Assembly (NCBI RefSeq): GCF_963666255.1
Contig: NZ_OY762656.1
Location: 2,020,695 to 2,084,694 of the forward strand
Length of the DNA stretch: 64,000 nucleotides
Source: an uncultured Propionivibrio sp.
GTDB lineage: Bacteria > Pseudomonadota > Gammaproteobacteria > Burkholderiales > Rhodocyclaceae
Direction of reading: 5' to 3'
Shown here piece by piece: positions 1,727 to 25,208 of this stretch. The stretch's first letter is position 1, and each line of letters opens with the position of its first letter. The notes under the pieces are model-generated. The model was not told the origin of the DNA. It did not search any database and saw only the letters and a list, made by a program, of their open reading frames with translations. The translations under genes were made by a program, and so were the position numbers.

Positions 1727-4700
1727 TCAGGAGCGCGCGTGGAGCATTTTCCCTATTAGGGTATCCACAAATCCGATTTCAACGAATGGGACTTGGGCAT
1801 AGATCATCTCTCTGTTTCCTTCAAGCTTCGCCAGTAAATGACCTCTGCCAAGGAGACGTTCTGCACCTTTCTCACCAAGAGCGATTTCGGACGTCCCTTC
1901 AGAGTCGACGCGAAGAATCAGTCGATTACCCAAATTCGAGCGCAGCTGCATTGGCATAACGTAAGCATCCGGTCGCTGGGCAGCGAAAATCAGATAGATG
2001 CCCGCAGCTCTAGCCTTCACACCAAGCCGCTGAACTATTGCGGACACCGCCCCCTTGTACTCTTCCGTAAGCATCCATTCGGCAAATTCATCGTGAATGA
2101 GCCAGATGACAGGCAGGCGTTCTCTTAGGGGGGCCTCAGCATTGTAGGCAGCTAGATTAGATACTCGCTTTTCCTTGAAGCGAGCGTAGCGGAGGTCCAT
2201 TTCTGCTACGAGTTCTTCGAGTCTTTGGGTTGCCATGATCTGATCATCGACGATGCCGCCATCAATATGTGGCAGCCGATCGAATGCGAAATAGTCAACG
2301 CCTTGTTTTGGATCGATCAGGACTATCCTCGCCTGTTCTGGCGTGTTGGTCGCGGCAATCCCCAAAATGATATTTTGCATCAGGACGGATTTGCCGCTGC
2401 CGGTGCTGCCTGCGATCAGGGTGTGTGGCGCATGGTCTTTCCCAGGTGAGAGGAATAGAGGAGCCCCCGAGTTTTCTTGTGCCGCAATCAATAGCTCCTG
2501 ATTACCCCAACCACTTGAGGTCGGCGACCAATCGGCCCAGAGGGAGCGAATATCGATAGTCTGGCGTTTGGGGCGCTCCACTGAGATCGTGACGGCACCG
2601 GGTTCTGGGCGGACCGATATAACGTTTAGCCCATAGGTCGTCAAGAGCTCTGACCTTTTCTTCAAGACTTGCTCGACGGTCAGGTTGGCGTTGCCGGCAA
2701 ACTTTAGCAGCGCAGAATTGGGCGTAAGAGCCGAGCCGACCAATTTAGCCTGTAGTTGTAGCTGCTGCAGGGCGCTACGCGTCGAAAAAGCTGTTTGCTG
2801 GAGCCACCCATCTTCTTCGGGCGCAATGGGCGCTGAGTGAAGGGCCGACGCAATCAAATCACCGATCTTAGAATAGGCCCAATGAGCTTGTGTCTGAGCA
2901 CGCGAAGAATCGACTGGCAAAGGCACACTCTCTCCGGAGACCGGCTGAGGGGCCAGATCCTCAATGCTCGGTTCGTTCGGCATCTCTGCGGGCGCGTCCA
3001 GAAGCGGCTCAAGAACTGGCAGTGTGGGCAGGGACGTTGGTCTTTGGACAGGCATGCGATAAGCATTACGGAGAGGTGCGATACCGGAGCCAGGGGTTCT
3101 CCAAATTGGCTCAAAGTCCATATGGAAGAAGTCCATTTCGCGCCGGACGTCGGCGGTGCTCTGATCATGCCAGTATGCCATCAAGAGCTGTTTGAGGGCC
3201 TTGCGACCGATGATTTCCTGATAGGCATAACGAACATCGGCAATTTCAGTAGCGATTGTCGGGTCGTCGGCATCGGAGGAGGTCGGGACAAAAACGTGAG
3301 AGAGGCCTTTGAGGTGGACCTTGCAGCGCCCTTCGCGCATGGCGCGGCGCCATTCTCCAAGATCGATGCCTCTTGCAGCGGGGATGCGAATGCCGTCAAG
3401 CATAAGATCAGCCAGTCGAGCTAGCCAGGATTGGCGGTCGAGCCGCTCCGGGTCGCCGAAAATTGCGTCTTCAAGGCGCTCGAGCGTATCGCGCAGCTGT
3501 TTTTGCGATTCTTTGCGCTTGGCAGCCAGACTCTCGATTTCCACATATTTCGCTTCGCTGACAGCAAGGGTGATCATCAGTGTGCCGTCTTCAGCTACTT
3601 GGGGGCAGATCGCGAGTAAGTCGGCGATCTGTTGTTCGCGCTGGCCAAGCCATGACGCGTAGTCATCAAGAAAGTACCAGCCGATTAGTTGGTCGGTACC
3701 TAGGTCGTCTCGTAACATGCGGCGACTCAGCACGATGCCCATCAATTCGCTTGCGCTCTGGCCACATGTGGCCGCGCGCAGCACGATGTCACCCGATACA
3801 TCATTAGCCTCGTCGATCAGGCGATCGGCCAGTGTTCGTATCTCCGAATCGGTCAGCGGTAGTTGCAGCGCCCTGAGACGGCTCATAATCATCGAGCGCA
3901 AAAGCGTCATCGGTGCGCGTGAAGAGATGATTAGATTACGTCCCTGGGTTGAAATCTGCTTGTAGCGTATGACCCGGACTTGATGATTCATTAGCTGACG
4001 CCGATCGAGAAGCTCGTCGAAATTGACGACCCAATTGCCTAGGTCGTGGGTCTCCTCGAAGATGCGTTTAGTCCGGCCGTCGGCGAAATCGAGTTGGCGT
4101 ACGGGCAAGAGGCGTTTTGATGTCGATTCATCTCGGTCACCTTTGAAAATGCTCGCGACGGCGGAGATATAAGCCCAGCCTTCAGCGCTTTGTACCGGGC
4201 AGCATAGGAAGACCGCTGATTTAAGGTCGTCTCGGGCAGCCGCCCGGCGGCGTGACCAGCGTGATGGCAACAGTTTGCGAATGTCGGCTGGTTCGCCTTG
4301 TTCGAGATACCATTCGAGTTGCGCATGACGCGATATGACATCTTGCGAAAAAACGATGTCGTATGGATGGCCGTCTTTGGGGTTAGGCGGCGGCGCTTGG
4401 TCGGCAATCACCGAAATTCGCAGGCGTGCCATGAAGTCTTGGGAGGCTTCACTTGCGCTATAGGCGTCTGCCGTAGCTTCGGAGCTCAGGATCGAGCAAT
4501 AGATATTACGAAGCTTCTGGCTTTCGATGTGGCGCAGCAGAACTTGGCATCGAACGTCGTCCTCGTCGTCCTGTATGTCGCCGATCTTCGCCACGACCGC
4601 CTGAGGCAGTCGTGCGGAATCGCAATTGAACAGTACGACTGACATGTTTGACCGTTCGTGCGGTTGCAGAGCGATATAGCGCTTGACGAGGTCATGGACG

Positions 4701-6997
4701 CAGGAGCTGCCCTCAGCAGGGCTTTCATTTGTGTCGTTCTCACTTCTGGGGTCTGCGATGGGGGGTTCATGCAGGCTGTAGTCGGCGACCACGTCGCTTG
4801 CTGTGAGAAATTGCGGGCCATCATTCGTCCAGATCGCCACAATCTCAGGGTAAAGCACGTGCTCAAAATCCTGAGCGATATCCCGAAAGAATAGCTTGGG
4901 GTCCCCCTCCGCCTCTATGCTGGCGAGAACCTGACTAACGAGGTCTATTGCGAGCTGATATTTTCGCCATATGGCGGCCAGACGCATCGGATGCCAGGGG
5001 GCGACGACGGCCGCCGGCCTGCCACCGTCGATTGGCGCGACACCAATCATGAGCAGTGGTTTGAGCAGCTTGTTGCGATTGCGATCACCTTTGGCCAGTG
5101 TTAGGACGGTTTCGAGCAGAGCGGCGTAAGCCGTCGTCTGATTGAGTATGGAGTCAGCGCCGCCCCCTTTTTTGGGGAAGTCGACAACTGCGAGCTTGTA
5201 GGCACTTTCAAATGTTGCAAAAGCTTCACCCAACGTCTTAGCATCTTGAGCGGAGAGATAGGCTTGATCAACGCACTCTCTGAGATTCTTGCGCCAAAAT
5301 ACGTCGAGATTCCGGTCAGGTTTAGCTGCAGGGACGAATGAGCCACGATCACGGTCAAAAGCCGGCATGAACGTTTTTACGTTGGCCAAATCGATCGATT
5401 TGTCGGCGGTAAATTCGCGCTGCGTGCGGCAGGCCGGGAAGGGGTTCTGGGTCAATCGACCCCAGTCGTCGACCAGTTGGCTTGCTACGCATGAGGGGTT
5501 ATAGCGCCAGATCAGTTGCGTCGAGTGCTTTTGAATGCTGTCCTCGTCAGTCGTTGTCTCCAATTCGACGACGAATTTGAGTTGCAGTGCCGGCTTGGCA
5601 GTGGATGTGTTGAGCTTATTCTTGGCCCTGTCGCCCTTTTTCCAGTCGGAGACAAGCTGGTCGAATTCGAAAAGATCGCCGACGTCCCAATCGATTTTCC
5701 CGCTGAACAGGCGACGCAGGCCGGCATAGCGGTGCGCGAAATAGAGACCGGCTTCATAGTTGAGAGATCTCAGGTCTCTCTTTGTTGCGGATTCGCATTT
5801 GATTTTTAGCTTGCGCTGATTGCCCGGCGGCATGCGATTATAAAGCGGCTCCATAACCGCGCAAATGCCGGCGATGAAGTCGGTTGTCTCGATAGGGCGG
5901 CCATATACAAAGCGATCCCAAGCAGACTTCAGCTTCTTGTCGTCTTTTATTTCGCTGCGGTGGGCTTCATAAAAATCAGTGTCTTCATCGATTTTTTCTG
6001 ACCGCTTGGACAGAAGCTTGAGATATTCCCGCTCTTCATCCTCAAGTTTATCTTCTTCCAGTTCACTGAAGTATTCAAGGGTGTTCTTGCCGAGGTTGAA
6101 TTTATCGCGCTGCAGGCCATCGAAGATCGGCTTAATTTGCTCCCAATCTTGTTCGGCTAAAGCTTCGGCCTGGGCATTCCAGCCGCTGGGTGCCCTAATA
6201 AAGGCTTCGATCGTGGGGTGGCAGACATTCGGGATCTGATGCGCAACCTTTTCGAACGCGTTGCGCAAGTCTTCTTCGCTGAGTAGGAGCTGGCTTGAGG
6301 TCTGCTTGAGGAGCAGCCCAGATCGTCTCTTGTGAGCATTATTGAATTGCTGCCTCCATGCCGATGCATGACCGCGCTGCCGCTCTTTGAGGCTTCCGAA
6401 GCAGGCTGGGTCGTTTGGCAGGCGTAGTGCTGGCATTGCTGCACCCAGCGCATCGATGATGGGGCGGCCCGTATCCTCGTTTTCTCGGCGGGTGCGCAAG
6501 ATATAGACGGCAAAGCGGTCGATCGAGACGATTCGAAGATCGCGGAGCCCGGTCAGAGCTTTTTCCCACCATCTTTGCTGCTCCTGGGCGATAGGCAGGC
6601 CTGTTGATGCCTCTCGAACCCAAAGGTCAATGCGCTCCAATAGCTCAGGTGGGCCAAGCTTTGCAATTTCACGAATCGAGGCGTCTTCACCATGTTCATG
6701 TTCAGCAAGTAGATAGGCTGCCTTCGGACAATCGGCGTTCCGATAGAAGGTAGCGTTTTCGGTCGTCAGAGTTTCATCAGGTAGACCTTGGTCGCTTACA
6801 AGCGAGATCGGCAGCTTGATGTCGATACGCTCTTTGAGATACGGATCCGCGAGTACGGCGCGTGCGACTGCTGCGACCTGTTCGGCGCTAAGATTGAGCA
6901 CATACCGCGCAGTCGACTGCGCCGCGCCCGTATCGGTCTGAAGTTCTTCGCGGAGATAGGCGGCGGCGACTGCGCCGACGAGCGAGGCCACGTTCAT
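1727..6997 (-). CDS. DptH/SspH-like restriction ATPase with C-terminal FtsK/HerA motor
   Basis: A 1756-residue protein whose last 230 residues form a RecA/FtsK-like motor. It shows a Walker A motif AGSTGSGKS (about 1529-1537), a Walker B-like strand VLIDPKQG, a second acidic strand WLIHDEF, and the sensor-like stretch FAAQRPDA. The first 1500 residues have no motif I can name. Size, C-terminal motor and position as last of three coupled genes match DptH (DndH) of the Dnd restriction complex, and by analogy SspH of SspFGH. In such systems the complex acts on DNA lacking the phosphorothioate mark. The start overlaps the preceding stop in an ATGA, implying translational coupling. The DptH-type assignment is fairly secure; its nuclease partner and specificity are inference. 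Confidence 0.72.
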   Translation of the reverse strand: MNVASLVGAVAAAYLREELQTDTGAAQSTARYVLNLSAEQVAAVARAVLADPYLKERIDIKLPISLVSDQGLPDETLTTENATFYRNADCPKAAYLLAEHEHGEDASIREIAKLGPPELLERIDLWVREASTGLPIAQEQQRWWEKALTGLRDLRIVSIDRFAVYILRTRRENEDTGRPIIDALGAAMPALRLPNDPACFGSLKERQRGHASAWRQQFNNAHKRRSGLLLKQTSSQLLLSEEDLRNAFEKVAHQIPNVCHPTIEAFIRAPSGWNAQAEALAEQDWEQIKPIFDGLQRDKFNLGKNTLEYFSELEEDKLEDEEREYLKLLSKRSEKIDEDTDFYEAHRSEIKDDKKLKSAWDRFVYGRPIETTDFIAGICAVMEPLYNRMPPGNQRKLKIKCESATKRDLRSLNYEAGLYFAHRYAGLRRLFSGKIDWDVGDLFEFDQLVSDWKKGDRAKNKLNTSTAKPALQLKFVVELETTTDEDSIQKHSTQLIWRYNPSCVASQLVDDWGRLTQNPFPACRTQREFTADKSIDLANVKTFMPAFDRDRGSFVPAAKPDRNLDVFWRKNLRECVDQAYLSAQDAKTLGEAFATFESAYKLAVVDFPKKGGGADSILNQTTAYAALLETVLTLAKGDRNRNKLLKPLLMIGVAPIDGGRPAAVVAPWHPMRLAAIWRKYQLAIDLVSQVLASIEAEGDPKLFFRDIAQDFEHVLYPEIVAIWTNDGPQFLTASDVVADYSLHEPPIADPRSENDTNESPAEGSSCVHDLVKRYIALQPHERSNMSVVLFNCDSARLPQAVVAKIGDIQDDEDDVRCQVLLRHIESQKLRNIYCSILSSEATADAYSASEASQDFMARLRISVIADQAPPPNPKDGHPYDIVFSQDVISRHAQLEWYLEQGEPADIRKLLPSRWSRRRAAARDDLKSAVFLCCPVQSAEGWAYISAVASIFKGDRDESTSKRLLPVRQLDFADGRTKRIFEETHDLGNWVVNFDELLDRRQLMNHQVRVIRYKQISTQGRNLIISSRAPMTLLRSMIMSRLRALQLPLTDSEIRTLADRLIDEANDVSGDIVLRAATCGQSASELMGIVLSRRMLRDDLGTDQLIGWYFLDDYASWLGQREQQIADLLAICPQVAEDGTLMITLAVSEAKYVEIESLAAKRKESQKQLRDTLERLEDAIFGDPERLDRQSWLARLADLMLDGIRIPAARGIDLGEWRRAMREGRCKVHLKGLSHVFVPTSSDADDPTIATEIADVRYAYQEIIGRKALKQLLMAYWHDQSTADVRREMDFFHMDFEPIWRTPGSGIAPLRNAYRMPVQRPTSLPTLPVLEPLLDAPAEMPNEPSIEDLAPQPVSGESVPLPVDSSRAQTQAHWAYSKIGDLIASALHSAPIAPEEDGWLQQTAFSTRSALQQLQLQAKLVGSALTPNSALLKFAGNANLTVEQVLKKRSELLTTYGLNVISVRPEPGAVTISVERPKRQTIDIRSLWADWSPTSSGWGNQELLIAAQENSGAPLFLSPGKDHAPHTLIAGSTGSGKSVLMQNIILGIAATNTPEQARIVLIDPKQGVDYFAFDRLPHIDGGIVDDQIMATQRLEELVAEMDLRYARFKEKRVSNLAAYNAEAPLRERLPVIWLIHDEFAEWMLTEEYKGAVSAIVQRLGVKARAAGIYLIFAAQRPDAYVMPMQLRSNLGNRLILRVDSEGTSEIALGEKGAERLLGRGHLLAKLEGNREMIYAQVPFVEIGFVDTLIGKMLHARS

Positions 6998-8520
6998 AGT
7001 GCAGATCTCCGCAAGGGATTTTCGACATAAGCACAGGCATCGGATAGCCGCCGTAGCATGCCGATAGTCTTGAGGCGATTTTCGAGCCGCGAGGCATTGG
7101 CTTGAAACGCTCGCTTGTCGAAATCTTCGGTGGTAATGGTGAGCTGCCCCTCCTGCTCTCCAAAGACGAAGCCGTATCGGTCGTAGAGGCGGCCAAGGAA
7201 TTGGCCGTAGTCCATGCGTACCGGAACGTTGGCTAGGATTAGTGCCTTGAGGAGTTCATCGGTTGGTGCGTAGCGCAGCCGATTGGTGCCGCGACGCGAG
7301 ACCAGTCCTGCGCCTCGTCCAAGGCTGCTGTGGACGTTGGCCGTATGCTGACGATGGCGCCGCTGCGCTGTGTAACGCAAATTTTCGAGGAGAGCGTCAG
7401 GGTCGACTGGACCGGTGTAGTCCTCACCGGGCCAACGTACTTTTTCTCGCATGATTTCACGGCATGCCGTAAATCCGGACTGCTCTGCCGCCGCAGCAAC
7501 CCATTCCGGCGAATTTCCGATACTTTGCACATAGGCATCGACTGCCGAAAGCGACAGTTGGTTGTTCGCGATGTAATTGCCTGCCGAAAGTTCACGAACC
7601 AGTGTTTTCTTGGGCGCGACAACTTCACAAATGAAGTGGGGTTTGGGCTTGTCACAGATGTGGGCGGCGACCTGTAGCTGATAAAGGGTGATATGAAGTG
7701 CTCCAAGGATCGTCAGGTATGGATAGGCGTCGAATCTTGGCAGTTGGAGTTCGAGAACGGCTAGCCAATCTTGGGCCAGCACCTCAAAGGCGGGATGCTT
7801 GGCGTAAGGTAGGTAGCTGCCGCTTCGCGTATGCCGCTCCTCGGAAACTTCCGGCTGAAGGAGTTCAGTAAGGCGATCACAGGGATCATGCCGCTCGAAC
7901 AGATGTGCAAAATTTCGCGCGAGCTCAGGAGCAGCGTTTGATCGCGCGAGCATCTGATAAAGCAGATCGCCGTTGCGCGTGAAATTGATGTATTCGCGGC
8001 TGCCCTCAGTGTTGAGGTCTTCATAAATCGCATGGCGTCCAAACGGAAATACGAAACGAGAGCTCCATCTCTTATTCATGCTGCTTTCGATCGTCGCAGA
8101 GCGTAGCATTTCGATAACTTTGACGAGCTGTTCGAAGTTCTCAAATCTGTTCTTGAGATAAGAAAAATCTCGTTGTGTAACCATCTTGGCGTTGCTCTGC
8201 ATCCACTCAAGCCAATTAGCCCATCCGGTTTCGTTATCGGGATAGAGCTCGGCGAGTTCCAGCAGCTTGTCGTTGTTGAACAAGAGATTGCGCAGATAGG
8301 GCCTTTGTGCCGGCCGGAAGCTGAAAGGGAATTGTGTCGCGTTTGCCGCAAATAACTGCCCGGTTGCATGAGAGGCTTCTGCGACCGAGAGAAATTCTAG
8401 GAATAGGAGCCATGGGTCCTGCTCCCACAGTCTGTGGCCCCAGATTTGTTCGTCAAGCCACAAATCATTGTCATTATGATAGCTCGCCGGCGGAGGTGGA
8501 AGCGGGACCATTTCAGTCAT
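6994..8520 (-). CDS. DptG/SspG-like component of the PT restriction complex
   Basis: This 508-residue protein lacks a P-loop, nuclease motif or membrane segment that I can see. It opens with a proline run (PLPPPP) and is rich in aromatic and acidic residues. It is assigned by position and size: it sits between an F-like ATPase and an H-like motor ATPase, exactly where DptG/SspG lies in PT restriction operons. It overlaps the upstream gene by 8 bases and the downstream gene by 4, so the three are likely made in fixed proportion. DptG-like proteins are thought to act as a structural partner of the two ATPases; that role is inferred here, not seen. Confidence 0.55.
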   Translation of the reverse strand: MTEMVPLPPPPASYHNDNDLWLDEQIWGHRLWEQDPWLLFLEFLSVAEASHATGQLFAANATQFPFSFRPAQRPYLRNLLFNNDKLLELAELYPDNETGWANWLEWMQSNAKMVTQRDFSYLKNRFENFEQLVKVIEMLRSATIESSMNKRWSSRFVFPFGRHAIYEDLNTEGSREYINFTRNGDLLYQMLARSNAAPELARNFAHLFERHDPCDRLTELLQPEVSEERHTRSGSYLPYAKHPAFEVLAQDWLAVLELQLPRFDAYPYLTILGALHITLYQLQVAAHICDKPKPHFICEVVAPKKTLVRELSAGNYIANNQLSLSAVDAYVQSIGNSPEWVAAAAEQSGFTACREIMREKVRWPGEDYTGPVDPDALLENLRYTAQRRHRQHTANVHSSLGRGAGLVSRRGTNRLRYAPTDELLKALILANVPVRMDYGQFLGRLYDRYGFVFGEQEGQLTITTEDFDKRAFQANASRLENRLKTIGMLRRLSDACAYVENPLRRSAL

Positions 8521-10360
8521 TTGAGATCTCTACGATTTGGTCGATGGCATTTCCAGTGCTATCCAGGGCAAGGAGCCGGAATATCAGACCATCGTCGTCA
8601 TCCTGCGTATGACGGTTGATCGCCGCAGCCGATAGAAGAGCGCTCTTGAATGCCAACAGATCCTCATAGCATTCACGGGAAAAATTGCCAGGTAGCGCGC
8701 CATCGCTCACACGCATTAGGAATTCGTAGCGCGTGAGATTGAGGGCCAACGATCTCATTTGTCCGTTGGGCAGCGTTACGATGAGATGCGGAAAGTCGCG
8801 GTGCAGGGATATTTCGACTCGCTCCACACGCCCGAGGGAGCTGATGGCGACTTTGTCTTCGAGCAGTTGACTGATCTTGGCGCCGGAGTGCGACAGACTG
8901 GTCGCTAGCAGCAGCTCGCTTTTTGTCGTGGTAAGGAGTCCAGTGAAGATTCGGTTGAGCCCATTTACGAGCTTGCTGACTGTTTGACGCGACACACGCC
9001 TACCGTCGTTTAATGGTTGTACGATATCGCGCAGATATTCGCCTGCACTATTAAATACCGTCAAGCACCAAAGTTTCAGTTCCTCTGCGTAGGCATCTGG
9101 AATCTTGAAAAATAACCCGCGCCTTTGGTCAACAAGCATGTCAAGGAAGGGGTGCCGATCATCGTTCTGCGCCTCTGGCATCTCGATATAACTGCGTTGC
9201 TCGCCGCGATATCGTTCGGTTGCTCCGTAGAAGTCATCAGCTTCGACCAAGTCATGGAAATACTGGCTGACGCTCTCGTCTTCCGCACCGAAAATTAGGA
9301 TGTTGTCGATTCGGTTCGTGGTCTCGAAGCCAATGCCGAATCGACAGAGATAGTCGAAGATCTCCTGCGCATCGCGTTTTGCGCTCTTCAGATTGGTTCC
9401 AAAGAGATTGGCGAAGAGACTCGCCTTATGGGTTTCTCCAGCAGCAATGATCTTGGCCGCGTCAGATGCAGACATGAGACCGTCTTTGGCTGAGGGATGA
9501 CCAAGGATGGCGTTGGCAAGCAGTAGAAGGACGCGCCGGATCGGCGAGTGGAGCTCGTTGAAGTCCAGAAGTTGGAATAACGCTACTAGCCGGGTACGCA
9601 CAAGCGGGTCGCGCAAAAGCTCAAAATTGCGCCGGATCGGGCATCTTGGACCGAAGAATCCGTTCGGTTGTGCGGCGGCATAGCAACTCTGCCAACCCTC
9701 GTGGTCAAGGAGTGCGTCTAGGCAGAGTGCCAATACCGTCGCACTGGAGACGGCGCTGAGATTAAAGAAATGCAAGCGGTCGGTCGGCTCTGGGTCTTCG
9801 TCATTCATGAGCCGAGCTTCGAATAGCGCCAAGGCACGGTGCGCGGCGCCATGTGGGCCGAGCTTCCGCCAGTTTTCGACGAGAGGCCCGTCATTGGCAG
9901 CAACTAGGAATAGATTGGACGAGGGCTCGAATAATGCGGAGCTTAGTTCTTGCAGAAGCTCGGCTTTTGAACCGTCCGGATCGTTCTTGCAGAACGGTGT
10001 TAAGTCGCGAATGAGATGGAGCGTGTAAGTGTGACCATTGATGGTCACAGGCAGCTTGAAATAGGATGTATTGTCGGCCCACGCGTCTGGTGAGCCTCCC
10101 AACGCCTCCCACACTTGGTAGCAGAGGTGGCTTTTGCCGTCACCGGCTGTACCAGTGAGTATGACCACGCCACCGTGGCCTTCTTTGCGGTCAGTGAAGG
10201 AGGCGAGTACGTCATGGCTAAGCGGATGCTCGAAGGCGATGGGGGCGACATTGAGCCTCTTCGACCATCGTCGAATCTCTTCGTCATACATGTTCGCGTT
10301 GCGCGCGAGAGGACCATATTGCCTGACGAAGCTGATCCATTTTTCGGCGTCGACTGTCAT
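8513..10360 (-). CDS. DptF/SspF-like P-loop ATPase of the PT restriction complex
   Basis: A 615-residue protein with Walker A GTAGDGKS at residues 70-77, embedded in VVILTGTAGDGKSHL. The start at 10360 is preferred over a longer reading frame (to 10504) because GGAG lies 9 bases upstream and the extra residues look non-coding. The DG in the P-loop and the position as first of the FGH-like trio fit DptF, the smaller ATPase of the Dnd restriction complex, or SspF. It lies 155 bases downstream of the receiver-domain gene, the widest gap in the operon, so an internal promoter is possible. Its likely role is ATP-dependent assembly or recognition within the restriction complex (inference). Confidence 0.62.
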   Translation of the reverse strand: MTVDAEKWISFVRQYGPLARNANMYDEEIRRWSKRLNVAPIAFEHPLSHDVLASFTDRKEGHGGVVILTGTAGDGKSHLCYQVWEALGGSPDAWADNTSYFKLPVTINGHTYTLHLIRDLTPFCKNDPDGSKAELLQELSSALFEPSSNLFLVAANDGPLVENWRKLGPHGAAHRALALFEARLMNDEDPEPTDRLHFFNLSAVSSATVLALCLDALLDHEGWQSCYAAAQPNGFFGPRCPIRRNFELLRDPLVRTRLVALFQLLDFNELHSPIRRVLLLLANAILGHPSAKDGLMSASDAAKIIAAGETHKASLFANLFGTNLKSAKRDAQEIFDYLCRFGIGFETTNRIDNILIFGAEDESVSQYFHDLVEADDFYGATERYRGEQRSYIEMPEAQNDDRHPFLDMLVDQRRGLFFKIPDAYAEELKLWCLTVFNSAGEYLRDIVQPLNDGRRVSRQTVSKLVNGLNRIFTGLLTTTKSELLLATSLSHSGAKISQLLEDKVAISSLGRVERVEISLHRDFPHLIVTLPNGQMRSLALNLTRYEFLMRVSDGALPGNFSRECYEDLLAFKSALLSAAAINRHTQDDDDGLIFRLLALDSTGNAIDQIVEISND

Positions 10361-10515
10361 TACCGCTTCTCCAACGGCATTAAAGTAGATATTCGGAGAT
10401 GCTTGCACTCCTGCTTGAACTCCGCGAGCGCCGAAAACGACGCATTTCTGATACGTGGGGCAGTGTTGAGCTAGAAACCGGAAATGGCGTCTTGTGTGCC
10501 CCAATAAGGTTTCTA

Positions 10516-12480: not shown

Positions 12481-14851
12481 CCCGTGCTCCTCCGTATGTC
12501 ATGACGAATCCATGGTGGACCCGGTCTTCATCGGCTTCCGCGAGTGAGATTTCCATTGCATTACCTTCTGCAAGCTTCTTCGCGATATACAAACCCATCC
12601 CGCGACCCTCGCCAGAAGGCTTGGTCGTGAAGAATGCATTGAATACTTCGTCGCCACGATCTTCCGGAATGCCAGGGCCGTTGTCCAGAACTGTAAGTAT
12701 GTTGCCGGCCCTGTCGATGCTGAAACTGATGACTGGATCGAATTTCGTTGTTGCCGCAAGCAACTTGAGCCAATAAACTGAGTTGGAAATGAAATTTTCT
12801 ACGATCTGCAGAAACTGCCCGCGGACGGCTTTGATCAACACGGGGGCCTTGCCTAGACCGGTTAGGTCGACTCGGATTTCATGACGCCCAAATTGGGGGG
12901 CGTGCATTTCCACGACTTCCTGCAGCGTCTGAACTAAGTCAAACGATTCTTTTCTTTGACGTCCCGGCGTTGACAACGGATCCAGGATACGGATTCGCCT
13001 CTCGAGAGTGCTCAGTTGATCTCGTAAATTCCGAAGCTGTCGATTCTCGGTGGCGTTGCTCGATTTGTAGGTCTGAAGCAACTTCAACGCGTTTGCGGAT
13101 AGGCGAGCTAGTTCATGGAAGATAAATTCTGTCATTAAGCCGACGCCTGCAAGATGGACGTATTTGTCGATGTCCTCTTCATAGGCTCGCACGGCGATCT
13201 TAGAGCGTTCCCAGGCTTCGGACATGTCTGTCATACGAGCGAGCAGTGTATTGATCGCCGCAATATCCTCAGGAGCTTTGACTTTGGTCCTCAAGTGCTG
13301 AACCTGCTTCAGCGCCTGCTTTTGGGCCTCCTCCAGGCGCTTCTCCAGCTTTGGAAACTCTTTGGCCGCTGATTCGTCCTGGGCCCCCTCGACAGCGTTC
13401 AGGTAGCTCTTGAACTCGACCACTAAGATGTGGCGCAATAACGCTATAAGCGCAGCTTTCTCTTCGGTGTCACGCAAACCTTCCCGGTTGGTCTGATCCT
13501 GCAAATGTGGATTGCCACGGCTAGAAATGCGAACTGCTCCGACCAATTGCTTCCGATTCATTTTGTAGCCCTGTGTGGCCAACGCAATGCCGTCTAGATC
13601 GAGCCAGTCGTCGCGTGGTTCCGCGTACGGATATACGCGGTAATGATCACGATAAAGTAGTAACCCTCCGCCCCAATGCGTTAACCACTGCAGAGCTGCT
13701 TCGTAGCCATCAGGTTTATCTAGGCGAAGCTTCTGCCGGTTAAACCAATGTGCTTCCATCTCAAATGGACCAAGACTTACAAGACCCTGGATCAGAGTGC
13801 CTGGTGGTCGGAAGACCTCGCCCGTCTTTGGACGCTTACCCTTCAAAGTAAGCGCGCTGAGGAGATGTATCCCCTCAAGGCTGAAGTTCTTGCTCTGCCC
13901 ATAGGACTTATACGTCACGTCGCCCGATAGCACTGGTTGGCCGTCAGCGTCGAGCGAAAAACTTGCGGAGCATCGGGCATGTGCATATGCGAGTTGACGT
14001 GTCTGAAACGATGGGATGTCGACTGACTGCCCATTAAAGTAAAGTCGTACATTTGGGCGGCTGAATGTCGTAAGGAGTGGATCCACCAACTTTGCAAAAT
14101 CAGTCTTTGCAAGAGATTCCATCTTTTCGATTGACCACTCGCTCGTCAAGTTAGACATGCGGATGATCGTGCCGTGGTCCGACGCTTTATTTTTCTTCGG
14201 CCCCACATTGGGAGCAGCAGGGAACTCGTCGAGGTTTAGATGCGGATTACGCTTAATCGCAGACCAGTCGATCTTAAGTTCAGACTGCGCTTTATCGCCA
14301 TTTTTGGAGGTTAAGACGTGAAGCTGATCTCCGAGGCGTACAGCAGAGAGTCGGCCGATACCTTTTTCTCCGAGCACATTATCGGCGCTACCGCGCAGTC
14401 GGTCGTCCAAGCGGTGGGTGGTCCCGATCGTGAGATAGACGCCACCGAGGTCCTCGAACGACATGCCGCCACCGTCGTCAACGATTTCGATCCAATTCGA
14501 TCGAATGTAGGCAGCATCTAGTGCCTGAACGTAGCTGGTATCCGATGGTGACAATGCAATTTCGAGGAAGGAGTCACGGTCAACTTGAGCAGCTGTGGGC
14601 TCCATGCCGGCTTCAAGCATTTGCCGAACCGTGTCTCGGGAGAGTCGCTCCTTCTTCTGGGCTGATCGCTCAAGTCTTTGGCGAATACTGAAGTATTCAC
14701 TTCGCGGTAGTGTGACGTGAACGTGTACCTCGATGCGGGAGGCCCGAGCATCTAGCGAGTTCTTTACCAACTCATAGATCGCGATCTGGTCAGAGCTGAT
14801 CAACTCCGCCCCGAGTTCAAGAAGGACGCGTGCTTTGACTGTTATTCCCAT
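12467..14851 (-). CDS. Two-headed GHKL protein: N-terminal Hsp90/MutL-like ATPase plus C-terminal histidine-kinase core
   Basis: This 794-residue protein contains two ATP-binding GHKL domains. The first has the N-box YELVKNSLDA (about 26-35), G1 VDDGGGM (124-130) and G2 GEKGIGR (161-167). The second has an H-box-like helix FIFHELARL with a candidate phospho-His near 579, an N-box NFISNS near 684, G1 DNGPGIP near 722 and G2 GEGRGMGLY near 746. A coiled-coil stretch precedes the H-box. No membrane segment is visible, so it should sense something in the cytoplasm. I chose the ATG at 14851 because MGITVKARVLLELGAELISS is the expected N-terminus of this fold; an upstream ATG at 14887 is less likely. 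It overlaps the receiver gene by 14 bases. The DNA-damage or phage signal it might sense is unknown. Confidence 0.75.
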   Translation of the reverse strand: MGITVKARVLLELGAELISSDQIAIYELVKNSLDARASRIEVHVHVTLPRSEYFSIRQRLERSAQKKERLSRDTVRQMLEAGMEPTAAQVDRDSFLEIALSPSDTSYVQALDAAYIRSNWIEIVDDGGGMSFEDLGGVYLTIGTTHRLDDRLRGSADNVLGEKGIGRLSAVRLGDQLHVLTSKNGDKAQSELKIDWSAIKRNPHLNLDEFPAAPNVGPKKNKASDHGTIIRMSNLTSEWSIEKMESLAKTDFAKLVDPLLTTFSRPNVRLYFNGQSVDIPSFQTRQLAYAHARCSASFSLDADGQPVLSGDVTYKSYGQSKNFSLEGIHLLSALTLKGKRPKTGEVFRPPGTLIQGLVSLGPFEMEAHWFNRQKLRLDKPDGYEAALQWLTHWGGGLLLYRDHYRVYPYAEPRDDWLDLDGIALATQGYKMNRKQLVGAVRISSRGNPHLQDQTNREGLRDTEEKAALIALLRHILVVEFKSYLNAVEGAQDESAAKEFPKLEKRLEEAQKQALKQVQHLRTKVKAPEDIAAINTLLARMTDMSEAWERSKIAVRAYEEDIDKYVHLAGVGLMTEFIFHELARLSANALKLLQTYKSSNATENRQLRNLRDQLSTLERRIRILDPLSTPGRQRKESFDLVQTLQEVVEMHAPQFGRHEIRVDLTGLGKAPVLIKAVRGQFLQIVENFISNSVYWLKLLAATTKFDPVISFSIDRAGNILTVLDNGPGIPEDRGDEVFNAFFTTKPSGEGRGMGLYIAKKLAEGNAMEISLAEADEDRVHHGFVMTYGGARDGGS

Positions 14852-14963
14852 AGGCAGCAACCTATTGGCACAAAAATTGGACAGCAAGACAGCAAGACAG
14901 TAAAAAACGCGGAGATCGGGGGCCCTTCGGAGTAGGGCACGGCAACCCTATGCCAAGCTGCAG

Positions 14964-15791
14964 TCACAGCTGACATACGAGGCATCCTTGATCGTCATCG
15001 TCCTCCGGTATCTCAGCAGAACCTGCCTGCGCGAACACCTCCATTAGCGTCACGTTCTCACGCCGCAATGCCTTGCGCTCAATGCGGATCACGTGTTCAC
15101 GCTTGATCTCCTCCATGCGTTCAGGCCGTTCCAGTTCTGCCAGACTTTCTCCTTGGCTCCACGTAAAGAAGTTGCCGGTTTTCTCATATGGTTTCTCGTA
15201 AGCCTTAGCTTTTTCGTAAAGATCCGGATGCGTTTCCTTAAGGCGAACCCACTCGATTTTCTGTTGGTAGAAGCAGAAGTAGCAGCCCGATCGGGTACGA
15301 CCCCAACGCGTATACGGTGGCATGCCTACGCCGGAGGTTCGCAGGATCTCTTCAATGTCGCGAAGAACCAAACCGTCCTCGCGAAACGGATATACCGCTT
15401 TGATATTTGGTTTGTGGCTGATATAGCCGCTGCGGTCTTCGTCGGCACGTAGCCCCACATAATTCACGACCTCGTCGTTGCCGCAGTGTTGTTCAAAAGG
15501 CTTGAGCTTCAAGGCTCGCGTACACCAACGGCGGTGGTTGGACGGAATCATGCCACCATACATCTCATACCAATGGTCGAACCCGACATCCGCATTGAGA
15601 TGCGTTACTTCTTTGCCGAGGTAGTTTGAGATGCGCTGTAGATACTCATAGGTTTCAGGGAGCTCCTTGCGTGTATCGCTGAAGATGTATTCCATCTCCG
15701 GAACACGATCGCGCAAGTATATGGCCAGCGCAGCACTGTCCTTTCCGCCGGACAAGCTGAGAATATGCCTAACTCGCTTCTCGCTTGCCAT
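14964..15791 (-). CDS. sspD: SspD-like PAPS-reductase family PP-loop ATP pyrophosphatase
   Basis: A 275-residue protein with the PP-loop motif SGGKDS at residues 14-19. Cysteines follow in WCTRALKLKPFEQHC and in SGCYFC, and the C-terminus ends CLVCQL. This is the DndC/SspD arrangement: an ATP pyrophosphatase that activates the DNA backbone for sulfur transfer, usually carrying an iron-sulfur cluster. It is shorter than DndC (about 500 residues) and matches SspD in size. Its start lies inside the end of the ATPase gene (23-base overlap) with a GAGGAG ribosome binding site. No cysteine desulfurase is encoded nearby, so sulfur probably comes from a housekeeping IscS. The family is certain; the SspD name rests on the neighbours. 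Confidence 0.8.
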   Translation of the reverse strand: MASEKRVRHILSLSGGKDSAALAIYLRDRVPEMEYIFSDTRKELPETYEYLQRISNYLGKEVTHLNADVGFDHWYEMYGGMIPSNHRRWCTRALKLKPFEQHCGNDEVVNYVGLRADEDRSGYISHKPNIKAVYPFREDGLVLRDIEEILRTSGVGMPPYTRWGRTRSGCYFCFYQQKIEWVRLKETHPDLYEKAKAYEKPYEKTGNFFTWSQGESLAELERPERMEEIKREHVIRIERKALRRENVTLMEVFAQAGSAEIPEDDDDQGCLVCQL

Positions 15792-18700
15792 GGTGCTTCT
15801 CCTCTGTGGAAATCGTAGGTGCGTGCATTACCTGAAGATCCTGCAGCGCTTGAGCTAGGGCTGCAGCGGCGACTTGCGGGTCGGCGTCGGACTCTCGTGT
15901 GAGCAGATCCAATACACTGCGTGCAAGGCTGGAGGACTGTTCAGTCGTGGCGACCAGCAGCGTGGCCTCCTGTCCGCCAGCGCTGGTGAGAGTCAAACTC
16001 AAGAAGCGCTCGGCCGTACGTGGCGCGTCCTTACGCTGCATCACTAGACGCAGCCAGCGACGATAATGACCAGAAATTTCCGTCACTGCCTGTGCAAAGC
16101 GGTCGATAGTCTCGTCCGTCCAGGCGTCCAGAGGGCGCTGAACGAGTAGGCTTGCTACGGAATCGAGCCACTTCTCATCCGTCAGCGTTAAGTCCGTGCA
16201 ACGAAGGATAAAGCTCTTGAGTCGGGCGTCTGCTAATCCAGCAGCTGCGCTCGAACATTCGGCCTGCAATTGGCTTCGAATCTTGCTAAGTGATCCAGAC
16301 ATTTCGAATGCCTGCCCCAACTCAGCAATGACGGTGTCTTGTAGCTTGCGTTGGCTCATTCCTAGATCCGTCAGCGCTGCGCCCAACCATTCCTGGAAAA
16401 GGGGAGTCCCCTTGCTCTGTGTGTGCGCTTTCGGTAGTGTTGAAGTGAGCAACAGGATCGGGTCCTGCGCCTTGCGCAAGGCCGAGCGAACCAGTGCAGC
16501 ATCCTTGCTGACTCGTCTTGTCTGCTGCGTAAAGTCCGACAGTCTTGCGAACCAGTGGTATAGCGCACGGGCCAGTTCCAGATAGGTTTTGTCACCGCTG
16601 GGCGCCGCCCCGAGGGAGGCTAGCACAGCGCCGAGGTCGCGCATCAAATTGCGGCCTCGCTGCACCTGCGGAACTTCGTGCAAAGTGAATGTATGCGGAT
16701 TCCGATGCATGCGTTGAAGGTGCTCGCTGGATAGTTCCAGCACCAGTGTGCCGCGCTCGAAAACTGCGCAGCGACTGCGATGGATCATCAGATAAAGCGT
16801 GACCCATACACTGGCCGGACCATTGCGCACTCCAAACGGAGGAGCGGCCAGAGCCTGAAGAACTTGCTCGAATGTGGGGGCATTTTCTCTTGCCAGAACG
16901 AGCGAAATTTCCGCCCAGAGTGCGGAGATATCGACATGGGCCTCTGGTTTGGGTGCGACTAGTTTCCAGCCGTCGCTGCTAGCTTGCCATATGCCGGTGT
17001 CGCGTAATAGAGTGGCATGGATTAGTCGTTCGGGCGGGTACTCGTTATCGCCAAAGAGAGGAGCTTCACCTGCACATGCCAACAGAGCGTCAAATAGCCG
17101 CTGACGTGCCAGAACGATAGCGGAAGCGGGGCGATTCTTGTTGATCAGTTCATTGATGATACGCGGCGCACGATGGAAGACCTTCTCGAACATCCAAGAA
17201 GCCACCTGACCAACGTTCATCGATTTGCTGTTCGGAATGATCTTCCCTTGGTACCAATACTCTGGACCAGTCTGTCCCGGGCTAGATGCTAATGCGGAGA
17301 GCACAAGCGCATCGACATCCTCTTTAGCTTGGAGGAGGCGGCTCTCAACGTACTGACTGGTCCAGGGGTCGAGTCGCTTGGAAGCCACTTCGCGTTGTAC
17401 CGTCAGCCAAATTGCCAACTCTGCGAGCGCCGCCCTTCCTTGGGCAGACAACGACAGGCAGCAATACACACTGCGCAGATCGTCCGCGTTGCGTACGCGG
17501 TCCAACGTCAGTAGTTCTTCCCGGGAATTCGTCGTTGTTAGAATCAGTCGAAGCCAGCCGTCGGGTTGCCCATCCGAATCATTCTGGTTGGTGCCTGCAT
17601 GGGGCCAAGCTGTGATCGTTCCAACATCAATAGCCAATGTACGGATCGTTCCTCGGCGGTCATAGTGCTTGTTGGCCACAACCAATCGATTTCCAAGTGC
17701 GTGCGAGGCCCCTCGCACAATAAGCTCGTCATCGCTGGTCTGCGCTGCATGCTCATAGAGCGCTTCGATGTTAACGGCGTCTGATACGGCGAAACCGTAT
17801 TCGGAGTGGTTGTGCCGACAAATCAACAGGCCTTGGCCTACAAGGCGGTCCAGTAGCTCCTGTGTCTCGGTGACTCTGAGGTTGCCTAGCGCAAATGCGA
17901 CCAGCTCCGGAGTAATGCGTAGAGTGAGAGGCGCCTGTACTAACTCCAGCACGGCAATGGTCTTGAGTGCCAACAAGGCATCTGCGTCTTTCGCTTGCCT
18001 TTCAATGTTCACCAGCGCAAATGCCCAACGACGTTCTGCAGCGAGATCGCGAAAGCGTAGTCCATTTCCCGATGCTAGATAGTCGAACATCTGGGGAAGG
18101 CGATACCAGGGATATCCCTCTACGGAGGTGACCTGCGCGAAATCCCGAAGCCCCGCCGGCTCGTTGCTGTTGAGGAAAGCATGGAATGAGCGCTCGCTTT
18201 GACCATAGCGCTTGGAGATAATGGCCAGAGAAGCTAACGCCAGGGGGTGGAGGGGGTAGAGTTTTTCGGGATGTTGAAACAGCCGGCGGTCAGCAGGCGT
18301 TGGCGCTCGAAGGATAGATTGCTCCAGTGCTGTTTGGAATACAGACCGTGCGGCTTCCAGAAGTTCGGGAGCTCGGTGTAGCAGCGGCTTGGCGCCCAGT
18401 GCATGAGTAGCGAAGTGCACGTAACGCTCGACGGGCTCGTCGAACGGGATCTCTTCGAAGCGAGACGCGACCTTGTGCCACTCTTCTCCAAGAGTGCGAC
18501 CAATGCCCGCGGCGTAACTCGCGAAGTGCTGATGCTGAAGGACGACCATTACGAGAGAGTCATCTCCTTGCCGACATGCTTCTTCAGCCAGTTGCTGAAG
18601 TGCGATCAGGTCCCCCGCTTCAGGGTGCATTGCGGCGTGCTCGACGAATTTCCCCACTTCATCAACCAGGAGCAACGTGCCAGAGAATCCTTGGGTACGA

Positions 18701-19227
18701 GCGACTAGCGCGAAATCGTGCATCAATTCCCCGGCAACCGCGTTGATGGGGCGCCCCTTGTAGAAGCCTGGCTCACTTAGATGACGTTGCAAGGTGCTGA
18801 CTCCCTTGCATTGGCGCCAGCCTTCCAGAGCGCGATGGATTTCCGCTTCCAGTGCTAAGCCGATGGACAGCCGTGCCCCCACGATTGCGAGCGTGAAACG
18901 TCTGGAGCTCGTGAATAGCTCAGCGACAGCCGCAGAGGCCTTTCGCAGCATTTCCGAGGTCGCAGGATGCGCGTCATTACCGGCGAGCAACTGGGCAAGC
19001 ACAATGCCCAGCGCAGACTTGCCGCTTCCATAAGGGCCAACCAATTTCCAGGCACGCTGCGACCGACATTCCGTAAGCGCCGTACCAATCTGCTTGAGTG
19101 CATGGACAGCATTAGGCGTCGGTAGGTAGCTGGCGAGTGCCGTATCGTCATGGAGATCACGGCTTAGAGAGATGGAGCGGGTGTGGCGTCCGTTCAGCTC
19201 TAGTCCATCGATGATTCGTTTAAGCAT
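15769..19227 (-). CDS. sspC: SspC-like large P-loop ATPase
   Basis: A 1152-residue protein with Walker A GPYGSGKS at residues 64-71 and a Walker B strand LLLVDEVGKF about 120 residues later. The rest is long, helical and without nuclease motifs I can see. An ATPase of this size directly between a DUF4007 gene and a PAPS-reductase-like gene is the sspBCD layout, in which SspC supplies ATPase activity for single-strand phosphorothioation. I take the ATG at 19227, which has AGGAGG about 10 bases upstream, rather than an in-frame ATG at 19320. It overlaps sspB by 8 bases. An unrelated ATPase of other defence operons cannot be excluded from sequence reading alone. Confidence 0.72.
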   Translation of the reverse strand: MLKRIIDGLELNGRHTRSISLSRDLHDDTALASYLPTPNAVHALKQIGTALTECRSQRAWKLVGPYGSGKSALGIVLAQLLAGNDAHPATSEMLRKASAAVAELFTSSRRFTLAIVGARLSIGLALEAEIHRALEGWRQCKGVSTLQRHLSEPGFYKGRPINAVAGELMHDFALVARTQGFSGTLLLVDEVGKFVEHAAMHPEAGDLIALQQLAEEACRQGDDSLVMVVLQHQHFASYAAGIGRTLGEEWHKVASRFEEIPFDEPVERYVHFATHALGAKPLLHRAPELLEAARSVFQTALEQSILRAPTPADRRLFQHPEKLYPLHPLALASLAIISKRYGQSERSFHAFLNSNEPAGLRDFAQVTSVEGYPWYRLPQMFDYLASGNGLRFRDLAAERRWAFALVNIERQAKDADALLALKTIAVLELVQAPLTLRITPELVAFALGNLRVTETQELLDRLVGQGLLICRHNHSEYGFAVSDAVNIEALYEHAAQTSDDELIVRGASHALGNRLVVANKHYDRRGTIRTLAIDVGTITAWPHAGTNQNDSDGQPDGWLRLILTTTNSREELLTLDRVRNADDLRSVYCCLSLSAQGRAALAELAIWLTVQREVASKRLDPWTSQYVESRLLQAKEDVDALVLSALASSPGQTGPEYWYQGKIIPNSKSMNVGQVASWMFEKVFHRAPRIINELINKNRPASAIVLARQRLFDALLACAGEAPLFGDNEYPPERLIHATLLRDTGIWQASSDGWKLVAPKPEAHVDISALWAEISLVLARENAPTFEQVLQALAAPPFGVRNGPASVWVTLYLMIHRSRCAVFERGTLVLELSSEHLQRMHRNPHTFTLHEVPQVQRGRNLMRDLGAVLASLGAAPSGDKTYLELARALYHWFARLSDFTQQTRRVSKDAALVRSALRKAQDPILLLTSTLPKAHTQSKGTPLFQEWLGAALTDLGMSQRKLQDTVIAELGQAFEMSGSLSKIRSQLQAECSSAAAGLADARLKSFILRCTDLTLTDEKWLDSVASLLVQRPLDAWTDETIDRFAQAVTEISGHYRRWLRLVMQRKDAPRTAERFLSLTLTSAGGQEATLLVATTEQSSSLARSVLDLLTRESDADPQVAAAALAQALQDLQVMHAPTISTEEKHHGKREAS

Positions 19228-20125
19228 GGATGGGAGCCTCCTCTTGTGTCTCCAGTAGGTAGTACGGATCGATGCGGTTGCGCTGGAGTACAACGCTTTG
19301 TGTGTCGGAGGTGTCAACAAAACGTAGGGCGTCGCGTAAGGGGCCTTGCGCCAAATTCTCTACGAAAGCGCGCAACTGAAATTCATCCAGCCGGAAGACG
19401 GCTCCGGGGCTTCCCGCCCCCTTGAGCAAACGATGAAAATCAACAGATGACAAGCCTTTCTCGCACGAAGCCACGAACTCTATCAACGCGATAGCAAACA
19501 CGCGTTGGCTCAAACCGATCGGCGTGCGAAGACCGGTGTTAAAGACGATACGTCCATCCTCTTCCTTGGCTGCGCGTAGCAATGCAAGGTCCTGCAGCGG
19601 GCACCAGGAAGTATCGTCGCCGTTGCGCTCGGCTTGGTAGTAGCTTTGGAGAAAAATGGCGGCGTGCTGCTCCAGCGTGCTAGTGGCAAGCGGCCTAGCC
19701 GAAACCGCTGCACGTTGAGCCAGTGCGGTGATTAGCCGCTGGCGGTCGAAGCGTACAAGTCGCCCCTCACCGAAGACCTCCGACCAGGCTGCCAGTGCTG
19801 CACGTGTGCAGAGGCGCCAATGCAACAACCATAATGACTCTAGAGACTCTAGATGCTGGTCCCATCCGCGCTTGGGGTCGAGCAGCTTGCGGCCGACGGG
19901 GCCTGGTTGGTGACCATGCCCAGTCGTGGGCACAAGAACACCCGTAGCTTCGCACCAGAATTGCAGTGACTTCAGCATGTTGCGGCCGATACCTAGCGTG
20001 TGCATCGCCCGCTCTTCATCCTTCAAGAGATCAGGGGTTACGGAAACAGCTTGGTAGGCCTTTGGCAGCCAGCCGTATCGGCATACGAAGGACTCATGTC
20101 CGGAAAAACGATCAGCGATTGTCAT
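19220..20125 (-). CDS. sspB: SspB-like DUF4007 protein, putative DNA-nicking subunit of PT modification
   Basis: A 301-residue protein beginning MTIADRFSGHESF, followed by CRYGWLPKAYQ. The FSGHExF...RYGWL pattern is the hallmark of DUF4007, and the length falls in the family's usual range of about 280-300. In described single-strand PT systems SspB nicks DNA ahead of sulfur insertion by SspC and SspD. The ATG at 20125 is chosen because it starts right at the conserved domain; it has a weak ribosome binding site, and in-frame ATGs at 20191 and 20251 are alternatives. This is the first gene of the operon, and no further minus-strand gene is seen upstream. A 13-base inverted repeat (CCAGT/ACTGG) lies 43 bases upstream. 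Confidence 0.78.
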   Translation of the reverse strand: MTIADRFSGHESFVCRYGWLPKAYQAVSVTPDLLKDEERAMHTLGIGRNMLKSLQFWCEATGVLVPTTGHGHQPGPVGRKLLDPKRGWDQHLESLESLWLLHWRLCTRAALAAWSEVFGEGRLVRFDRQRLITALAQRAAVSARPLATSTLEQHAAIFLQSYYQAERNGDDTSWCPLQDLALLRAAKEEDGRIVFNTGLRTPIGLSQRVFAIALIEFVASCEKGLSSVDFHRLLKGAGSPGAVFRLDEFQLRAFVENLAQGPLRDALRFVDTSDTQSVVLQRNRIDPYYLLETQEEAPIHA

Positions 20126-20818: not shown

Positions 20819-20923
20819 CCTTTCTCGTTTAATTAATTTTAATCGACTGTTTCTACTCTCTTTTTATTTGTGTATTGAATAAATTGTTCCTGATGGTTAA
20901 TCATTAAAAGAGAGATGGCTAAA

Positions 20924-21664: not shown

Positions 21665-22250
21665 CGTTCGACATCACTCAGCTGGGCTTCCATGTGGCAG
21701 TTGAAAGGTCAGGTAGGCAAACCCGCGATCACATCACATGCTCCTCGCTTGGAGGAAAACAGCGCACAGGGAAGCTCGGACTGGTAGGTTGCTGACGTTC
21801 ATTGCTACTTGGATGTTGGATATCGATAGAAGATTCTCAAGTCAATCAACTCACTCACCGATTTCCGAATAGCGTGAAGGGAAAGCTTTTGGCCCCCTGC
21901 CGTTAAGTAGTAAAAAACTTGCTCGAGTTGGATCAGTCGGCGACGATTTTGATGGCTACCATGCTGTTATTAATACATATTGTCCTTATCGCGTCGTGCC
22001 GTTTGGTTGGTAGCGCTGATTGATCTGATCCCTTCTTGGTGTCGCGTTGATATGTCTTGGCGAGTGCAGCCGGATCGCTTAGCACACGTCAAGCGCATTC
22101 GCGCCACCGGCAGGGGATTCCGCGCAAAACAGTTGTCACGCCGGCGATTGAGCGCCAAGCCGGCGCCAAGAAAACAGTAGGTCGAGAATCGGTTACGGTG
22201 CTTTCTGAGACCGCTGCACTCGCATGTGGCTCGAACATAAGGAAGTAGAA
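21665..22250. other. 586-bp gap with no convincing gene
   Basis: Short open frames occur on both strands (for example 21980-22180 on plus), but none has a good ribosome binding site or recognisable product. The stretch may hold the leader or replication control region of the RepA-like gene that follows. Confidence 0.5.
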
Positions 22251-24955: not shown

Positions 24956-25208
24956 TTCAATTACCTCAATAGGCAAAGCGAATCGTCCGTCACTGCATAT
25001 GAATATTTGAGGGGGCGTTGTGTAGCAGTGACGGAAACCTCGCAAAGCCCCAAAATTCTGCAAATACTTGGCAAGCGGGGTGTTTAAGACCCGGCCAAGC
25101 AAGATCGTGAGACGCAACAAAACCAGCCGTTGCCTAACGACCCTAATGGGGGGTACATAGCCTCTTTGAGGGTATGTCCCAATAAATGACCAAAGCATTG
25201 CAGACGGA

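Follow-up and report, generated by a model that had tools for sequence, protein, structure and literature searches.

An operon of eight minus-strand genes in a 64,000-nucleotide stretch of DNA from an uncultured Propionivibrio sp. (contig NZ_OY762656.1, positions 2,020,695 to 2,084,694; 'the window' below, with positions counted from its first letter) places two middle genes, for a histidine-kinase-like protein (K) and a receiver-like protein (R), among the sspBCD and sspFGH genes of a phosphorothioate (PT) defense system. The reading we favor, with evenly balanced confidence and from sequence comparison, is that the locus is an SspBCD–SspFGH PT restriction-modification system carrying K–R as a third coupled module, with a response that would be independent of FGH. 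The comparison shows the parts themselves, their conservation, the co-occurrence of the pair with BCD and its occurrence without FGH. K–R is therefore presented here as a candidate third partner of SspBCD, one that could explain some 'orphan' sspBCD loci. The operon consists of the following elements.

sspB, 19220..20125, minus strand: DUF4007 protein (PADLOC SspB, E 4.8e-111; Pfam DUF4007, E 6e-59)
sspC, 15769..19227, minus strand: BrxC-like ATPase of 1152 residues (PADLOC SspC, E 0, 1604 bits)
sspD, 14964..15791, minus strand: PAPS-reductase-like protein (PADLOC SspD, E 2.1e-118; DndC just 0.0019)
D–K gap, 14852..14963, no strand: 112 bases separating the BCD and K–R blocks
K, 12467..14851, minus strand: dual-GHKL histidine-kinase-like protein with HATPase_c_3, H box and HATPase_c
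R, 10516..12480, minus strand: receiver protein with a helical insert and an undescribed C-terminal half
R–F gap, 10361..10515, no strand: 155 bases separating the K–R and FGH blocks
sspF, 8513..10360, minus strand: P-loop ATPase (PADLOC SspF, E 1.3e-204; DndF 3.5e-5)
sspG, 6994..8520, minus strand: SspG protein (PADLOC SspG, E 1.5e-190)
sspH, 1727..6997, minus strand: FtsK/HerA-type ATPase of 1756 residues (PADLOC SspH, E 0, 2190 bits; Pfam FtsK_SpoIIIE, 2.5e-31)

From 20125 to 1727, all eight open reading frames (ORFs) are present and uninterrupted, as an earlier note on this DNA had described them, with gene starts here taken from family alignments. They form three coupled blocks, BCD, K–R and FGH. 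The same note had the genes mostly overlapping by 4–23 bases, which holds for five of the seven junctions (B–C 8, C–D 23, K–R 14, F–G 8 and G–H 4 bases) but not for D–K and R–F, where the two gaps intervene. A terminator scan found no terminator-like site on the minus strand in either gap, the promoter and terminator scans gave fewer sites than in shuffled sequence, and Rfam had no match within the window. A single transcript across all eight genes is plausible.

Judged by its sequence matches, the backbone of the locus is the published SspBCD–SspFGH PT system. Chance is excluded by the PADLOC E-values of the six Ssp proteins, which run from 4.8e-111 to 0, and by the recurrence of the eight-gene order, which a survey proposed in the earlier note finds identically in Aromatoleum and in two Zoogloea records, all near-identical to one another. 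The sspBCD modification genes and FGH-like restriction genes of that note are borne out as SspB, SspC, SspD, SspF, SspG and SspH; its P-loop ATPase is SspF, and the protein it had left unassigned is SspG. We rejected a Dnd identity because SspF (1.3e-204) far outscores DndF (3.5e-5) and the DptF model reaches only 0.0038, below its cut-off. A BREX identity was likewise rejected, since Pfam, NCBIfam and PADLOC give no PglZ or BrxL match among the eight proteins and the scores of BREX models are much lower; the best PADLOC BrxC model, for example, gives the sspC product 267 bits against 1604 for SspC. Pfam finds no cysteine desulfurase among the eight operon proteins, and IscS is encoded elsewhere in the same genome (749 bits, above cut-off). 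As a side observation, both SspG and SspH resemble MADS proteins: the MAD7 model gives SspG an E-value of 1.7e-10, well short of its cut-off, and mad8 hits SspH at 3.1e-21.

In K, Pfam assigns an N-terminal HATPase_c_3 domain (9.8e-18) and a C-terminal HATPase_c domain (2.5e-17), and both are found together in 14 of 14 family members. Residues H577, E578, R581, N684, N688, D721, G723 and G749 (numbered from window:12467-14845) are invariant in an alignment of these 14 sequences, as are the N-terminal GHKL motifs. Six of the aligned sequences come from loci that lack FGH, and the ATPase motifs and H box are kept there. The N-terminal ATPase resembles that of the BbrUII restriction enzyme in NCBIfam (4e-20, with 71.9 bits where the cut-off is 550). 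HEF_HK (PF19191) matches nine of the 14 members at E up to 0.1, the best at 7.1e-5; the window K scores 15.8 bits (E 0.02) against a cut-off of 24.1.

The N-terminal half of R retains D20, D149 and K219 in all of 14 sequences and D19 and S191 in nearly all, and these five residues are, as far as the alignment indicates, a full receiver phosphorylation site. The two middle genes have the look of a kinase and its receiver, much as the earlier note, which saw a dual-GHKL protein and a receiver, had supposed. In the C-terminal half of R, all 14 sequences share G364, C387, D388 and R487; in a 20-sequence set that includes 13 chosen stand-alone R proteins, G364 and C387 remain invariant and D388 nearly so. 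Neither Pfam, NCBIfam nor PADLOC assigns the window R to a family, including any known DNA-binding family, and its 13 relatives show at most isolated weak Pfam or NCBIfam matches in single members; Response_reg (PF00072) and Response_reg_2 (PF19192) match none of the 14 at E up to 1. An AlphaFold model built with 20 sequences places residues 13–232 at a predicted local distance difference test score (pLDDT) of about 60–93, with the strand order of a receiver and, following strand 1, a long helical insert; it renders the C-terminal half as beta-rich at low confidence; a model from seven close relatives alone has a pLDDT of 39.9. Foldseek with the R model against the PDB returned 279 matches at E up to 10 and none at 0.001. 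Among the matches listed, the top probability (0.66) belongs to 6zxm, a receiver-type diguanylate cyclase, and receiver-type proteins figure among the higher-probability entries. The best hit of a PDB sequence search with R was CtrA (E 0.047).

K–R accompanies sspBCD in diverse hosts, with named examples in Alpha-, Beta- and Gammaproteobacteria and in Chloroflexota. Eight loci emerged from a scan of genome contigs; B, C, D, K and R are all present in six of them (L003, L005, L006, in which K is split, L007, L009 and L010), whereas L008 is a remnant in which an SspC fragment runs into R. In the window, L003, L006 and L007, BCD and FGH flank the pair. L003 (Aromatoleum) and L007 (Zoogloea) are identical across 21,959 bases, and L006 (Zoogloea oleivorans) is 99.98% identical to L003 save for an insertion in K. 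The identity of the Aromatoleum tolulyticum and Zoogloea dura loci points either to recent transfer or to a mislabelled assembly. For the insertion in L006, a group II intron was considered and rejected, as Rfam gave no match and the inserted ORF of 487 residues lies on the opposite strand; we take this ORF to encode an IS5-like transposase.

In a survey of 72,556 plasmid records (tblastn thresholds 1e-20 for K, 1e-40 for sspD and 1e-10 for sspG), K was present in 17 and sspD in 61, and 16 of the 17 K records also carry sspD, four A. baumannii records and two equal-length A. tumefaciens plasmids among them. The lone K plasmid without sspD is from Allorhizobium, and there a methyltransferase gene overlaps K by 4 bases. 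An R-like gene lies directly downstream of K in all ten plasmid K regions that were fetched, the Allorhizobium match being weak (E 2e-8, with a profile built from the other nine R proteins and five more). In the A. baumannii locus (L047:1852-20577), K–R is followed by D-C-B on the other strand and then by transposition genes. Related repeats of 19–31 bases, seen by eye, flank K-R-D-C-B there, and the whole looks like a Tn7-like element. Viral contigs hold BCD–K in two of 79 loci, one with R and the other ending after K.

K–R and FGH occur apart as well as together. Of the 61 sspD plasmid records, 60 were listed and supply the sspG counts: sspG is present in 33, with K and sspG together in eight, K alone in eight, sspG alone in 25 and neither in 20. 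Half of the K-bearing sspD plasmid records (8/16, four of them A. baumannii) lack sspG. These counts argue that FGH can do without K–R and K–R without FGH, and the pair as a fixed part of BCD–FGH was rejected because it is found without FGH and FGH without it. The earlier note had cast the pair as a regulator built into the BCD–FGH operon. That claim finds no support here: the pair accompanies sspBCD whether or not FGH is present, and 25 of the 33 sspG plasmids lack K. K–R and BCD are on opposite strands in six fetched plasmid loci, and in Candidatus Chlorohelix (Chloroflexota, L013:6594-26523) the pair falls between C and D, in the order A-B-C-K-R-D-F-G-H. In eight genomes or records behind K–R loci, each searched whole, SspH matches were confined to the FtsK-like end, and SspE was not matched by the PADLOC model used, one of several. 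In Hymenobacter and Sphingomonas, two close relatives in FGH, the stretches fetched contain neither K nor R. A Methylibium plasmid (L156:9717-26284) carries BCD, a DUF262 protein and FGH together, without K–R; by its domain, the DUF262 protein is SspE-like.

Dual-GHKL pairs also lie beside DNA methylases. When viral contigs were scanned with the K alignment, 79 loci were recovered from the best 80 of 108 relatives, some near-identical (for example, L070/L071/L074); the same scan with R alignment A1 found no relative. In 77 of the 79 loci sspBCD is absent beside K, and 71 of them have an R-type ORF after K. A methylase motif is carried by 39 of the 51 genes immediately upstream, compared with three of 428 genes lying over 5 kb away, and Pfam places 49 upstream proteins in the overlapping classes N6_Mtase (17), Eco57I (15), C5 methylase (8), N6_N4 (7) and D12 (2). 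Among the 86 proteins of 43 pairs, matches at E up to 0.01 number 43 for HATPase_c, 43 for HATPase_c_3, nine for Response_reg, two for Response_reg_2 and one for HEF_HK. Where R has 235 residues or fewer, an HNH gene follows it in 13 of 17 cases, whereas none follows the 54 longer R proteins, 31 of which have a next gene on the same strand; short R with HNH against long R without it hints that the output part of a long R is built in. A GD...CD motif resembling the one in the window R is present in 22 of 54 longer and none of 17 short R proteins and in three of 570 other ORFs, by a pattern devised after the sequences had been viewed; the methylase and HNH tests also used custom patterns. In a phylum sample, seven further genomes have a K-like gene, each with an R-type neighbor and no sspBCD nearby, and six of the seven have a methylase-motif gene within three genes. 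None of the eight operon proteins matches a DNA methylase family, and the modification enzymes that adjoin the pair in the window are SspBCD.

A FastTree phylogeny of 93 K proteins unites the 18 members of the ssp-linked set in one clade with support 1.0, and 17 of the 18 have ssp genes beside them. The exception is L004, which was labelled ssp-linked in the tree despite having no BCD; the K of L050 was too short to include. Distances between K proteins correlate with those between R proteins (r 0.90, 15 loci) and also with those of D (0.68, 15 loci), C (0.65) and B (0.71), with p at the floor of 0.0005 for all four. By these comparisons K–R looks like the branch of a two-component family, otherwise linked to methylases, that accompanies PT genes.

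Under the reading we favor, SspBCD, with the cell's IscS as sulfur donor, would place PT in host DNA, expected at 5'-CCA, and SspFGH would damage DNA that lacks it, both by analogy with the published system. We infer the signal, the phosphotransfer and the action of R. The N-terminal MORC-like ATPase of K would most likely monitor DNA or the modification complex as a clamp. Upon failed modification or the arrival of foreign DNA, the C-terminal kinase would autophosphorylate the H-box histidine and pass the phosphate to Asp149 of R, the C-terminal half of which would then act as, or switch on, a response that needs no FGH. A broader version of this proposal is more tentative, and we think it somewhat more apt to fail than to hold: SspBCD–K–R would form a third PT defense class beside SspE and SspFGH, built from a PT-sensing DNA-clamp kinase and a phosphorylated receiver-effector, with methylase–K–R(–HNH) loci as its methylation counterparts, and would cover some orphan sspBCD loci, the A. 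baumannii global clone 2 ones among them.

Other roles for the pair are conceivable, and each draws on some of the same observations. K–R could be a conventional regulator, with K sensing infection or PT level and R altering ssp transcription. Histidine-kinase and receiver features and a position within the operon suit such a role, and PMC7464106, in the text available, speculates that a kinase by the ssp genes of 211 Acinetobacter strains regulates SspE. We nevertheless consider it unlikely, for R matches no DNA-binding family in Pfam, NCBIfam or PADLOC, the invariance of G364 and C387 in 20 R proteins, stand-alone ones included, marks the C-terminal half as an old shared part, and the HNH gene that follows most short R proteins fits a non-transcriptional output. 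Alternatively, the pair might gate SspFGH, with phosphorylated R restraining or releasing the nuclease and so sparing host DNA. K–R does lie between BCD and FGH in four loci (the window among them), FGH without PT harms cells (PMC8092258, as far as its available text goes), and K distances correlate with those of G and F (0.72 and 0.69; seven loci each) about as well as with those of D. A gate of this kind is nonetheless quite improbable when half of the K-bearing sspD plasmids have no sspG, most sspG records have no K, and K retains its catalytic residues in FGH-less loci.

A further alternative is that K–R is an independent defense system and travels with ssp genes simply as island cargo, as pairs without BCD in 77 of 79 viral contigs, in seven phylum-sample genomes and in L004 would allow. 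This, too, seems improbable, because 17 of the 18 K proteins in the ssp clade adjoin ssp genes and the stand-alone pairs are mostly found by methylases, so that pairing with a modification enzyme seems to be the norm.

Several observations weigh against K–R as an FGH-independent third module of the Ssp system. The C-terminal half of R resembles no known nuclease in the Pfam, NCBIfam and Foldseek searches made, Response_reg is matched by none of the 14 R members, and the window K falls under the HEF_HK cut-off. Distance correlation does not single out BCD, as K tracks F, G and H too (0.53 for H, eight loci; D against H gives 0.77). The phylum sample has sspD in 11 of 398 genomes, and neither K nor R lies within about 10 kb in any of the ten other sspD loci, three of which have FGH; together with the 25 of 33 sspG plasmid records in which tblastn found no K match, this argues that K–R is not needed for BCD or FGH. 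In L006, the transposase-like ORF (L006:8242-9827) splits K while BCD and FGH are intact, and L004 (L004:1058-11968), from a betaproteobacterial metagenome-assembled genome, has K–R with no sspBCD or FGH in 22 kb. Moreover, the loci behind these counts are not independent of one another. Separately, K–R in L004 directly adjoins genes that look Tn7-like by eye.

The Ssp backbone, a kinase by ssp genes in Acinetobacter and kinase/receiver pairs by restriction-modification genes are already known. In the Vibrio anguillarum FF-93 SspABCD–SspFGH system, according to the text of PMC8092258 available, SspBCD and IscS make PT and SspFGH damage PT-less DNA. FF-93 and the window have the BCD and FGH genes and IscS as sulfur supplier in common; the window differs in the K–R block between BCD and FGH, and the main text of PMC8092258 never mentions 'histidine kinase' or 'regulator'. 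Two-component-like HEF_HK/Response_reg_2 pairs linked to restriction-modification systems were described in 2021 (PMC8011034). Those pairs resemble K–R, on the text available, in a kinase with HATPase_c_3, H box and HATPase_c, an adjacent receiver and a place by DNA-modification genes, but K–R is partnered with phosphorothioation rather than methylation and no R matches Response_reg_2. The viral methylase-linked pairs share the architecture and restriction-modification setting in that account, although mostly outside its two Pfam models, and its main text contains none of six PT and Ssp terms.

A histidine kinase by ssp genes was noted in Acinetobacter in the available text of PMC7464106 (2020) and PMC12421847 (2025), the latter suggesting a new Ssp variant in A. 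baumannii global clone 2. The A. baumannii locus resembles the window in having sspBCD with a nearby histidine kinase, the K proteins being 29–30% identical, but it has no FGH in the record stretch and its R is 13% identical (alignment A2). As far as their available text goes, the Acinetobacter papers do not tie this kinase to other phyla, to R conservation or to a methylase-linked family. Type-4 BREX (PMC12839542, in its available text) shares SspB-, SspC- and SspD-like proteins with the window, whereas PglZ and BrxL are matched by none of the eight operon proteins. The literature searches found no paper linking PT defense with kinase/receiver pairs associated with restriction-modification; the available text of PMC3710099, PMC7824862 and PMC12137116 does not describe the K–R pair, and the main text of Rakesh 2024 (PMC10853773) has none of six kinase, receiver, SspF and SspH terms.

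What the present comparisons add is that K–R is one clade across phyla, with BCD and with or without FGH, and that its catalytic residues are kept in both settings; to this we would add that, within a family linked to methylases, it looks like the PT branch. The two-component defense system Detocs (DtcA/B/C) is like K–R in outline, with a kinase acting on a receiver-effector, but differs in kinase architecture and is not known to be linked to DNA modification. K–R also joins two literatures, on PT defense and on two-component pairs associated with restriction-modification, that stand apart in the text available. In the available text of PMC8092258, 2,211 of 2,678 sspBCD loci lack both FGH and SspE, and possible other restriction partners are left open. 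K–R is a concrete candidate partner for such loci, as eight of 28 sspG-less sspD plasmid records, four of them A. baumannii, carry K. If our proposal is true, phospho-signaling belongs to self/non-self DNA discrimination.

Next to the operon lie genes of mobile elements, assigned by Pfam.

MobA/MobL relaxase, 20915-21664, plus strand
AAA_25 ATPase, 22224-23360, plus strand, which we take to be RepA-like
AlpA, 24383-25198, minus strand
Tyrosine integrase, 25534-26817, minus strand
Tyrosine integrase, 27588-29051, minus strand

Because the relaxase, AlpA and two tyrosine integrases adjoin it, the operon probably rides on an integrative mobilizable element. Beyond the integrases, 29402-32164 encodes an AAA/OLD-like ATPase (AAA_15/AAA_21) and a DUF2026 protein.

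Other genes accompany K–R in alphaproteobacterial loci that lack FGH. A small protein with a hydrophobic segment, 33–50% identical among L014:21147-22675, L016:25268-26706, L012:3382-5131 and L015:5477-6229, adjoins a class I methyltransferase in three of these four loci and is a possible further Ssp accessory module. Next to K–R in two FGH-less loci (L014:18612-21032 and L016:11276-13693) lies a protein of 805–806 residues that weakly matches GHKL; its Devosia and Ensifer versions share 69% identity. Finally, by BCD–K–R in Rhizobium (L012:16597-20429), the gene for a TCAD9/APH-like protein with a receiver-like start overlaps that for a 747-residue protein without a clear family.

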